64,000 bases of DNA, taken from contig FJOG01000041.1 of the NCBI GenBank assembly GCA_900073065.1, forward strand, positions 334,677 through 398,676, written 5' to 3'. Below are positions 56,488 through 58,214 of the stretch, one piece after another. Origin of the DNA: Phialocephala subalpina. Lineage: Eukaryota; Ascomycota; Leotiomycetes; Helotiales; Mollisiaceae. The notes under the pieces are model-generated. The model had not been told where the DNA came from. It ran no database searches and worked only from the letters and a program-made list of their open reading frames with translations. The stretch's first letter is position 1. Every line of letters begins with the position of its first letter. Both the position numbers and the translations under genes were made by a program.

Positions 56488-56873
56488 CTGTGACTGATTA
56501 GCTTTTTGTCAATCTTAGTAAAGAACGTTGACTTGGAAATAGTGAAAGAAATTGATACTTTAGATTGGCTTTCAGTAGCCCCTTTCAAAGAAGAAAGACC
56601 CTTGTTGCTTCGTACATTGTCTGCTTCTACACCACGAAATTCAATGCTTTGAGATCGGCTTGAATTTAGATAGTCCAGCTAATCTTTATTGCAATCTTAG
56701 ATGTGAAATTTGAAACTAAATTCACAGGATATATTTCGGCAATGACTCACACGCTAGATATTGACCGCGGTCGTTCCCCACTCAACTTTGGGCCTTCTTT
56801 TGCTAAAGACATATAGATTTAAATAACAAATTTTCTACCAATCAAAGCTCGAATCACTTCAAGCTCATTCCCA
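56488..56873. other. Intergenic, no gene seen
   Basis: AT-rich sequence between the aldehyde dehydrogenase and the tRNA-Tyr gene; nothing recognisable. Confidence 0.5.
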
Positions 56874-56962
56874 CCCTCGGTCGTCTAGCTGGTTTATGGC
56901 GTCCGGCTGTAAATTGTATCAGTCTCACCGGAATGTCGCGCGTTCGACTCGCGCCTGAGGGA
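56874..56962 (+). tRNA. tRNA-Tyr (anticodon GTA) with 14-nt intron
   Basis: The acceptor stem CCCTCGG pairs with CTGAGGG with one G-U pair. The T arm is GCGCG-TTCGACT-CGCGC and the anticodon stem TCCGG pairs with CCGGA. The anticodon loop starts CTGTAA, giving anticodon GTA at 56909-56911. A 14-nt intron (56913-56926) sits in the canonical place after position 37, the same length as the yeast tRNA-Tyr intron as I recall it. The discriminator base is A. T-rich runs just downstream can end Pol III transcription. Confidence 0.92.
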
Positions 56963-57330
56963 TTGTTTTTTGGCTTTTTTGCTTTGTAAATAATATATAT
57001 ATAATTTTTTTATTTATTTTAGTAGATGGATGGGCTGAGGATCTAATGTGTATTAATAGTAGATTGTAAGTGAATTATTATATTGTTTCTACTTAAGGAA
57101 TGCAACATAAAGCTGAGTGGAAAGGTGGTTGAAAAGACTTTTCTTTTTTTTGAAAAATCTACCACTCGGCTATGCTCAGGGGAGTTACCTCGTTAGCGAG
57201 CTCGCTTCCAAAATGCACCAAAAATCTCTGCACCCACCACACAAACAGCCAAAGCCAAAGTCAAGCAGCAGCAAAAAGATATAAAAAGAGTGTGTTCATT
57301 ATTCAAGGTTAACCTTGAATCGCAGTAATT
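56963..57330. other. Region between the convergent tRNA genes
   Basis: It contains T-rich runs next to the tRNA-Tyr 3' end, AT-rich sequence, and the 20-nt palindrome at 57301-57320. No coding signal is seen. Confidence 0.6.
57301..57320. repeat. Perfect 20-nt palindrome
   Basis: The sequence ATTCAAGGTTAACCTTGAAT equals its own reverse complement. It starts 11 bases beyond the 3' end of the tRNA-Phe gene, in its direction of transcription. Confidence 0.95.
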
Positions 57331-57366
57331 TGCGGCTTCTGTGGATCGAACACAGTGCCTCCAGAT

Positions 57367-57384
57367 TTCAAATTCCGAAGTTTT
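57367..57384 (-). other. Canonical tRNA-Phe intron after position 37
   Basis: Eighteen bases beginning AAAACTTCGG, close to the start of the yeast tRNA-Phe intron as I recall it. It should be cut by the tRNA splicing endonuclease. Confidence 0.88.
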
Positions 57385-57396
57385 CTTCAGTCTGGC

Positions 57397-57449
57397 CTGA
57401 GAGACAATTAGTACACAATATTATGAGCCGTCAGTGCAATGCGACTTAC
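57397..57449 (-). other. Spliceosomal-type intron inside tRNA-Phe
   Basis: The insert begins GTAAGT, has TACTAAT near its 3' end and finishes CTCTCAG. Its 53-nt length is typical of the mRNA introns in this window. It separates D-stem base 25 from position 26. Signals and exact restoration of the tRNA are seen in the sequence; removal by the spliceosome is inference. Confidence 0.8.
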
Positions 57450-57474
57450 GCTCTCCCAATTGAGCTAAAGCCGC

Positions 57475-58214
57475 ACTTTGGGTATGGATATATAATTTTC
57501 TTTTATTTAAATCTATGTGGGCTTTCAAAACGTGGTGCGGCTGTAGGAAAGGTGGCCTTGGGAGTCATAACTTCCTGACGACGCGCTCACGAACCTCTTC
57601 TTTTTTTCATTTCTTTATAGCGGAATTCCAGACCCTGTTGAGCAACAATATTCCCAGCAAAAATGATATTTGACTATGTGTTAGGAGTGGAAATGCGCTG
57701 GGAATCGTGGGATCGATGATGAGTCGCGACTGGGCCTGATATGCAGCGAAGGTCTTGAGCGATCTTGACTGAAGTTGTGGTATGGCTTGGTTGCTAATTC
57801 TGAGATGTTGGGAAGATATGATCCTGTGAGGTGGCCTTTCATGTTGGATTTTAGTTGTTGCAATTGTTTCAATAATTTATTGCTTCACCTTCGCGATCGC
57901 ATGTTCAGGCTTTGAAAGTTGAGTTTTCAGCGCCTGCCAGGCCTCAAACCGCTGTCACCCCAGGGCTTTGTCGCTAATTTTCAGCGTGTCAGTTGTGACA
58001 GCATTCGAGTCACCAGCCACATCTTCCAAACCGAGGAAAGATTATTCGCGCGCAATCAAGTGATTGTCCCAGTAGATTTGAAAGCTGTCAATCATATCCT
58101 GCTGCATATGTACTGTGAGGTTTCTATATCTTCCAAGTCTCAAGTTCTCCCTTTCTCACCTTCCAAGCATATTGCATCGATCAGACCCTACCATCACCCC
58201 TCGAATAGACCAAG
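57475..58214. other. Intergenic, divergent promoter region
   Basis: It lies between the minus-strand tRNA-Phe and the plus-strand coiled-coil gene. No other feature is recognised. Confidence 0.5.

Follow-up and report, generated by a model that had tools for sequence, protein, structure and literature searches.

The window, a 64,000-nt stretch of the genome of Phialocephala subalpina, contains a 144-nt tRNA-Phe(GAA) gene on the minus strand (57474–57331) that can be read directly from the sequence. Exon 1 (nt 1–25; 57450–57474) comprises the acceptor 5′ strand, the D arm and the A box, and is followed by a 53-nt intron of spliceosomal type (GTAAGT...CAG; 57397–57449) that is absent from an intact tRNA-Phe gene elsewhere in the genome (C43). 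This intron carries the branch-site motif TACTAAT (57407–57413), with 11 nt of intron after the branch A. Exon 2 (nt 26–37; 57385–57396) contains the anticodon GAA, and exon 3 (nt 38–73; 57331–57366) the anticodon 3′ strand, the T arm with the B box, the acceptor 3′ strand and A73. Between them is an 18-nt intron after nt 37 (57367–57384), in keeping with the established 37/38 position rule for canonical nuclear tRNA introns. On the same strand, an exact match to a putative Pol III TATA element, TAGATTTAAATA (57504–57515), precedes tRNA nt 1 by a 29-nt leader (57475–57503), and the gene is followed by a 3′ trailer hairpin, ATTCAAGGTTAACCTTGAAT (57301–57320), recognisable in other tRNA-Phe copies, and by a T5 run (57283–57287) that likely acts as a Pol III terminator.

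An ordinary tRNA-Tyr(GTA) gene with a 14-nt canonical intron (56874–56962, plus strand) lies ~370 nt away on the opposite strand, with the same TATA element at 56814–56825. The window also contains HET-like reading frames (the family was recognised by eye) and a sulfatase frame whose best named matches are from Coleophoma (82–83% identity) and Phlyctema (77%), both members of the Helotiales.

A reading of the window made without database searches (the sequence-only reading) had described a 53-nt insert with GTAAGT, TACTAAT and CTCAG signals in this gene, and the insert indeed lies after nt 25 (57449–57397, minus strand). That reading had mentioned neither the TATA element nor the T5 run. Taken out together, the 53-nt insert and the 18-nt intron leave, as had been proposed, a 73-nt tRNA-Phe whose stems (7, 4, 5 and 5 pairs) are fully paired; ARAGORN makes no call in the natural sequence and reports tRNA-Phe(gaa) after removal of the 53 nt. 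An Rfam gathering search of the window reported nothing, missing also the tRNA-Tyr gene found by ARAGORN. A motif-free scan of the gene, in which every deletion with a start at 20–189 and a length of 35–109 nt was tried, gives seven registers (four products) at the top fold score, one of them GT-AG. Two registers, the GT-AG one and a one-base slide with the same product, yield the C43 sequence except for one D-loop base. The same reading had argued that such a restoration is hard to get by chance, and the controls bear this out: a scan for GT-AG inserts with a branch site restores a tRNA in none of 2000 dinucleotide-shuffled TATA-site sequences; of 5100 overlapping window tiles it does so in two, both at the tRNA-Phe gene itself.

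A DNA search of the assembly (68.1 Mb in 119 contigs) with the window gene finds five tRNA-Phe loci, of which three are complete and interrupted, one is intact (C43) and one is truncated (C46). A count of the other tRNA-Phe genes had been proposed as a check, and it gives one intact, two more interrupted (C36 and C63) and one truncated copy. C43 has the tRNA body without the insert and thus represents an empty site. C36 has a 52-nt insert (GTACGT...AACTAAC...CCAG) at the same place as the window gene (C119), and C63 has a 48-nt insert elsewhere, in the D loop (GTAAGG...TTCTAAC...TAG). The mature sequences differ from C43 by one (C119), none (C36) and none (C63) of 73 nt. The insert cores of C119 and C36, which occupy the same place, are 46.7% alike compared with a shuffled mean of 48.2%, and so are no more similar than shuffled sequence.

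The C46 locus contains a 3′ half only. A first half is not found in ~9.7 kb upstream with probes allowing up to one mismatch, and exact matches to the first 14 nt of the tRNA-Phe gene are confined to four places, those of the four complete copies; for both reasons C46 looks truncated, and it is probably dead. Trans-splicing of the C46 half gene was considered and rejected, neither the exact 14-nt search nor the ~9.7 kb upstream providing a separate first half. Because the probably dead C46 also retains its 3′ half, exon identity alone proves little about function, and because an intact tRNA-Phe gene is present at C43, the window copy need not work. A trailer of ~45 nt is common to the copies at C119, C36, C63, C43 and C46 and consists of CTGCGA, a hairpin, GAACA and a T run; the paired bases of the hairpin vary by copy, and C46 forms it differently.

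The TAGATTTAAATA element occurs in 226 copies in the genome, compared with nine of the reversed pattern. A 14-mer extension ending AAG occurs 134 times and a 16-mer ending AAGCA 100 times, with no reversed copies of either. It lies upstream of ordinary tRNA genes, a U6 snRNA gene and an SRP RNA gene, and a role as a Pol III element is therefore very likely. Of the first 55 sites in contig order, each of which was read, twelve are flagged by ARAGORN or by the tRNA matcher, and ten of these were taken as plain tRNAs; the remaining two are an interrupted gene that is misread (L071) and an unclear locus (L066). Among the ten plain tRNAs the two programs disagree on the anticodon of L062, L077, L088 and L045, and L058 and L059 are called by ARAGORN only. 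Four of the 55 sites head interrupted tRNA genes (Phe C36, L068, L071 and L087). An upstream TATA element is present at all eleven of the interrupted genes described below (nine exact, two close variants), with a leader from the element to tRNA nt 1 of 28–41 nt in nine of them. A run of five or more T residues is present downstream of ten of the eleven; at the eleventh, L125, only 6 nt of downstream sequence are covered.

Other loci headed by the TATA element do not resemble plain tRNAs. Twelve that end in T runs are non-tRNA loci (L105, L110, L096, L086, L073, L085 and L111; L104 and L106; L074, L118 and L123), and by eye the L105, L104 and L074 types form repeated families. An Rfam search with 20 TATA-locus sources (including L074, L096, L104 and L105) gives matches only to U6, SRP RNA and tRNA, and the non-tRNA families look like uncharacterised Pol III RNAs or SINE-like elements. 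Four further TATA-headed genes (L066, two at L100, and L101) have tRNA-like ends, A and B boxes and a long middle part, and three of these (L066 and both at L100) exceed the Rfam tRNA cut-off. Both tRNA-His genes (L039 and L041) are followed by similar trailers containing a B-box-like stretch (GGTTTGATTCC and GGTTCAATTCC).

The genome contains at least eleven complete interrupted tRNA genes with 14 inserts, as counted in 298,570 examined bases (a figure in which overlapping loci are each counted). The set comprises three tRNA-Phe genes, two tRNA-Arg genes and one each for Glu, Cys, Pro, Ala and Asp, together with L087, which is Gly(TCC) by ARAGORN and Trp(CCA) by the matcher. A single freak gene is thus rejected as an explanation, and what the sequence-only reading described for the window tRNA-Phe gene extends to many tRNA genes.

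The genes were recovered in three scans. In the first, motif-free deletions of 35–109 nt were tried at 100 looser TATA sites without a plain tRNA by the matcher; a tRNA fold is obtained at nine sites, and GT-AG is among the top registers in six (Phe C119, C36 and C63, Glu(TTC) L068, Cys(GCA) L071, and L087). At the other three (L101, L115 and L124) a single deletion gives a fold without a GT-AG register, and L115 and L124 are solved by pairs of introns. The second scan, at the same 100 sites, required GT, AG and a branch motif with up to two introns per gene and added Pro(AGG) L115, Ala(CGC) L124 and Arg(TCG) L125, each with two inserts; several register pairs tie in the tRNA-Ala gene, and the pair with the best donors was taken. 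The third, across the 298,570 bases with the motifs required, added Arg(TCT) L044 and Asp(GTC) L051; of its 15 distinct hits, L030, L037 (twice) and L050 are intact tRNAs with re-cut ends and were left out. Five of the eleven genes (L115, L124, L125, L044 and L051) therefore come from scans that required GT, AG and a loose branch motif.

Also left out of the gene count were C46, L101, where the deletions lack GT-AG, and L139, a tRNA-Ser-like locus containing two insert-like stretches with splice signals, one of them in the acceptor stem. The matcher does not accept the L139 fold; the locus is possibly a decayed interrupted gene, and some interrupted copies may thus be decayed. An Rfam tRNA search of the genome, in which 63 of 2196 candidates were scored, gives two hits (C75:1047862–1047922 and C62:340554–340614) that span model positions 6–65 in 61 nt, like L044, and these may be further interrupted Arg copies. 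Interrupted or diverged copies can be missed by sequence search, since the concatenated query did not list the tRNA-Pro gene L115 or the tRNA-Glu(CTC)-like L077. In the natural sequence ARAGORN makes no call for nine of the eleven interrupted genes and misreads the other two, for which reason surveys of fungal tRNAs may lack whole isoacceptors; run without its linear option it gives spurious calls, probably from pieces treated as circular.

All 14 inserts are 48–54 nt long with GT-AG ends. All have G at +5, which was required in none of the scans, and ten have T at +6. CTAAY is present in all 14, with the branch A 9–12 nt before the intron end; GT-AG and the branch motif were required for the inserts of the five scan-dependent genes, and neither was required for the six motif-free ones. 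Twelve candidate mRNA introns of the window, chosen by frame joining with the donor pattern and CTAAY required, have a similar look and are 50–105 nt long. The longest T run in the 14 inserts is three, and runs of four or more occur in 0 of 12 inserts and in 3 of 12 mRNA candidates, a difference too weak to count.

The inserts are found in many parts of the tRNA body. One is in the acceptor stem after nt 6 (Arg(TCT) L044), four are in the D arm (both of Ala L124, Phe C63 and Cys L071), and three are at the border of the D stem and the anticodon stem (Phe C119, Phe C36 and one of Pro L115). The other insert of L115 is in the variable region, and both of Arg(TCG) L125 are in the T stem. Inserts in Glu L068, Asp L051 and L087 lie between the same two T-loop bases and split the B box. 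Comparison of the cores of 12 of the 14 inserts gives only one of 66 pairs over the threshold (Phe C119 with the second of Ala L124; z 3.0), and these twelve are therefore not visibly one sequence family. The L125 inserts have an unusual GTTCGT donor; both begin with the same 7 nt (GTTCGTT) and finish alike with AATTACTAATTGA...CAAAG, and one was perhaps copied from the other, the ends being alike by eye and the cores under the threshold.

Canonical introns of 10–34 nt are present in eight of nine genes (three Phe, L071, L087, L115, L124 and L125, with L068 the ninth), and the Asp gene L051 has one of 15 nt; both Glu L068 and Arg(TCT) L044 are without one. After removal the acceptor stem is paired 7/7 and the T stem 5/5 in all eleven genes, and the anticodon stem is paired 5/5 in ten and 4/5 in L087 (by the matcher's reading). 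The D stem is 4/4 in seven genes and 3/4 in Pro, Ala, Arg(TCG) and Asp, as it also is in the intact genes Pro L088, Arg L036 and Arg L037. The matcher finds a cloverleaf in all eleven; ARAGORN calls a tRNA in all eleven and the expected isotype in eight, being one base off (gga) in spliced Phe C36 and C63 and giving Gly(tcc) for L087, which the matcher reads as CCA.

How strongly the fold dictates the insert ends varies among the genes. Each of the six genes recovered by the motif-free scan has exactly one GT-AG register with the top score, the tied top registers numbering seven for Phe C119, three for Phe C36, 65 for Phe C63, two for Glu L068, 34 for Cys L071 and two for L087. The two registers of L068 (one product) are the only ones that restore its fold at all, and L087 likewise has only two. 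The ends in Phe C63 and Cys L071 are less forced, as these are D-loop inserts with 65 and 34 ties. In the three tRNA-Phe genes the C43 sequence is obtained from the GT-AG register only (plus a one-base slide in C119 and C36), when C119 is allowed its one D-loop base. At the 100 TATA sites without a plain tRNA, the scan for GT-AG with a branch site restores nine, compared with 0, 2, 2, 1, 1 and 3 for six other pairs of end dinucleotides at the same sites.

An indication that the joined RNA matters comes from tRNA-Pro. The interrupted gene L115 and the intact L088, a second empty-site paralogue, differ at only 2 of 72 nt, at mature positions 5 and 67, which pair with each other in the acceptor stem (C-G in L088, T-A in L115). 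Both inserts and the canonical intron of L115 fall between these positions, and such a paired change would require either that selection acts on the joined RNA or that two hits coincided by luck. The tRNA-Ala(CGC) gene L124, with its two inserts, keeps a G3-U70 pair, the known alanine identity element.

For tRNA-Glu(UUC), the sole locus identified by a mature-sequence search (E up to 10) is the interrupted gene L068. A pattern comprising its D arm and anticodon, with up to two mismatches, likewise gives one hit (L068) and no control hits; these searches would miss a tRNA-Glu(UUC) gene with a diverged or L077-type D arm. L077 itself is tRNA-Glu(CTC)-like, with the anticodon CTC by the matcher, although ARAGORN reads the gene as Met. 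Under standard wobble rules a CTC anticodon cannot read GAA, and GAA codons are common in three frames of the window, where they number 14, 25 and 18. A wider pattern of Glu anticodon and T arm gives three hits (C115, C112 and C57), with two and zero control hits. The C115 hit was rejected as its spacing does not fit a tRNA. C112:399308–399341 has 4 nt more than L068 between the anticodon and the T arm and no L068-type D arm; because of the additional 4 nt it would need a canonical intron of ~3–4 nt, and it could be an intact tRNA-Glu(UUC) gene with such a very short intron. C57:45896–45951 has a TATA element ~180 nt upstream of it and could represent a further interrupted tRNA gene.

For tRNA-Cys(GCA) a mature-sequence search finds the interrupted L071 only. 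A Cys pattern gives 12 hits, all with two mismatches, and three control hits, and none of the 12 is tRNA-Cys-like by eye. The uninterrupted L062 is Cys(gca) with a 5-nt intron according to ARAGORN and has a CTC anticodon by the matcher.

Taken together, these features point to spliceosomal (U2-type) introns having entered the tRNA genes of this fungus, whose Pol III transcripts would be spliced, folded and used; we put the probability of this reading at roughly four in five. On this reading, nuclear tRNA genes would have acquired introns of the mRNA type at several points along the tRNA body. Pol III would transcribe the interrupted genes from the upstream TATA element and the remaining internal boxes, although the T-loop inserts should weaken its recruitment because they split the B box in three genes. 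The spliceosome would remove the 48–54-nt inserts, the tRNA endonuclease would separately remove the short intron after nt 37 where one is present, and the joined product would fold and then be used in translation, the order of the steps being presumed.

The alternative that survives best, itself unlikely, is that the interrupted genes are pseudogenes struck by intron-like insertions (e.g. of the introner type) and spliced too little to matter, with intact copies doing the work. Intact tRNA-Phe (C43), tRNA-Pro (L088) and tRNA-Arg(TCG) (L035) genes exist, C46 is truncated and L139 looks degraded, and the C112 locus could provide an intact tRNA-Glu(UUC), all of which suits a set of dead copies. 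However, dead copies would not be expected to pair fully in the acceptor and T stems of all eleven genes and the anticodon stem of ten, nor to show the paired tRNA-Pro change across introns, and random insertions would not all bear G at +5 together with a branch site in a suitable place. The sequence-only reading had itself offered a dead gene as one of two options; the tRNA-Pro pair and the folds argue against this as a general account, and the window copy itself may be dead, given the intact C43. Its other option, that a Pol III gene took up an mRNA-type intron whose splicing the tRNA needs in order to work, is now the better supported of the two, with 14 inserts in 11 genes, two empty-site paralogues (C43 and L088), the compensatory tRNA-Pro change and the interruption of the only tRNA-Glu(UUC) locus identified.

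It is very unlikely that the endonuclease removes the inserts as ectopic tRNA introns by cutting at a bulge-helix-bulge (BHB), as in Cyanidioschyzon merolae, with GT-AG coincidental. Red algae and the Guillardia nucleomorph do have ectopic tRNA introns, many of those in the nucleomorph without a defined motif (PMC3978253), and 1 of 12 inserts reaches seven of the eight motif pairs. The other eleven have only one to five of the eight, near the random mean of 3.1; twelve canonical introns of the same genome score 2–5 as well, which makes the test a weak one. Introns removed by the endonuclease would have no reason to share GT, G at +5, CTAAY and AG.

More doubtful still is the proposal that the interrupted genes lie within longer Pol II transcripts, from which the inserts would be removed by ordinary mRNA splicing and the tRNA then cut from the spliced RNA. 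The split B box of the three genes with T-loop inserts leaves their use by Pol III unassured, but a TATA element shared with U6 and SRP RNA genes, exact (nine) or variant (two), heads all eleven, and T5 or longer runs follow ten of them.

Least credible of all is an identity of the inserts as group I introns, degenerate and very small. Group I introns require a U as the last exon base, yet a T precedes only 2 of 12 inserts, and the agreement of the splice signals would be left unexplained. Group I introns as small as 63–75 nt do occur in fungal rDNA, in Phialophora, and those end in U (PMC3160393), whereas the present inserts all end in AG.

Spliceosomal introns in non-coding genes are not without precedent in fungi. 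Introns of the mRNA type were reportedly found in fungal U6 snRNA genes (Tani and Ohshima, 1989, and Canzler et al., 2016, both cited in PMC5832005), and spliceosomal introns are likewise reported to occur in ascomycete and lichen rDNA (Bhattacharya et al., 2000). The U6 case is alike in being a spliceosomal intron within a small structured Pol III RNA, the hosts here being tRNAs. The rDNA introns are also short, of mRNA type and in a non-coding, non-Pol II gene of ascomycetes; there the host is Pol I rRNA and here it is tRNA. At least seven U6 copies of the present genome are above the cut-off (48 of 3913 candidates were scored), and because the full model is matched within 103–112 nt these seven are without an intron.

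PMC8527467 describes spliceosomal introns at ectopic sites in the rDNA of ascomycetes and lichens and the splicing of a 57-bp intron from yeast rRNA. Normal spliceosomal introns are reported in fungal U3 snoRNA genes in PMC5832005 (2017), according to which no small structured RNAs other than U3 and U6 were so far known to carry introns often. The U3 introns resemble the present ones in being spliceosomal introns of a small structured non-coding RNA; the difference is that tRNA genes of several isotypes are interrupted here, at several positions and with up to two such introns per gene. Ectopic tRNA introns of C. merolae and the Guillardia nucleomorph, located in the D loop, the T loop and elsewhere besides 37/38, share with these the ectopic positions and, at times, the presence of several per gene (PMC3978253); they are discussed there as BHB-type, whereas the present inserts have spliceosomal signals and mostly lack a BHB by the weak test above. 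Canonical nuclear tRNA introns differ from the 48–54-nt inserts in position, length and signals.

A 2026 review of non-canonical splicing (PMC13149111) presents tRNA splicing as a process in which the spliceosome takes no part, and passages of PMC12730881 and PMC11782384 make no mention of a spliceosomal intron in a tRNA gene. Among the titles and abstract openings listed by the literature searches, which mostly lay outside subscription journals, none reports spliceosomal introns in tRNA genes.

Whether tRNA-Glu(UUC), and perhaps tRNA-Cys(GCA), exist only as genes with spliceosomal introns, so that decoding would depend in part on the spliceosome, stands at even odds; if true, each such tRNA would be a joint product of Pol III and the spliceosome, with the tRNA endonuclease added where a canonical intron is also present, and the supply of tRNA would be tied to splicing capacity. 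The textbook division assigns mRNA to the spliceosome and tRNA to the endonuclease, and many tRNA genes with mRNA-type introns, some with two beside a canonical one, would break it. It becomes testable whether the spliceosome can act on Pol III transcripts that are short, fold tightly and have exons down to 6 nt, and how a split B box is dealt with by Pol III. Intron gain is not necessarily limited to protein genes, and the cell of this fungus probably has to use its mRNA splicing machine to make some of its working tRNAs.
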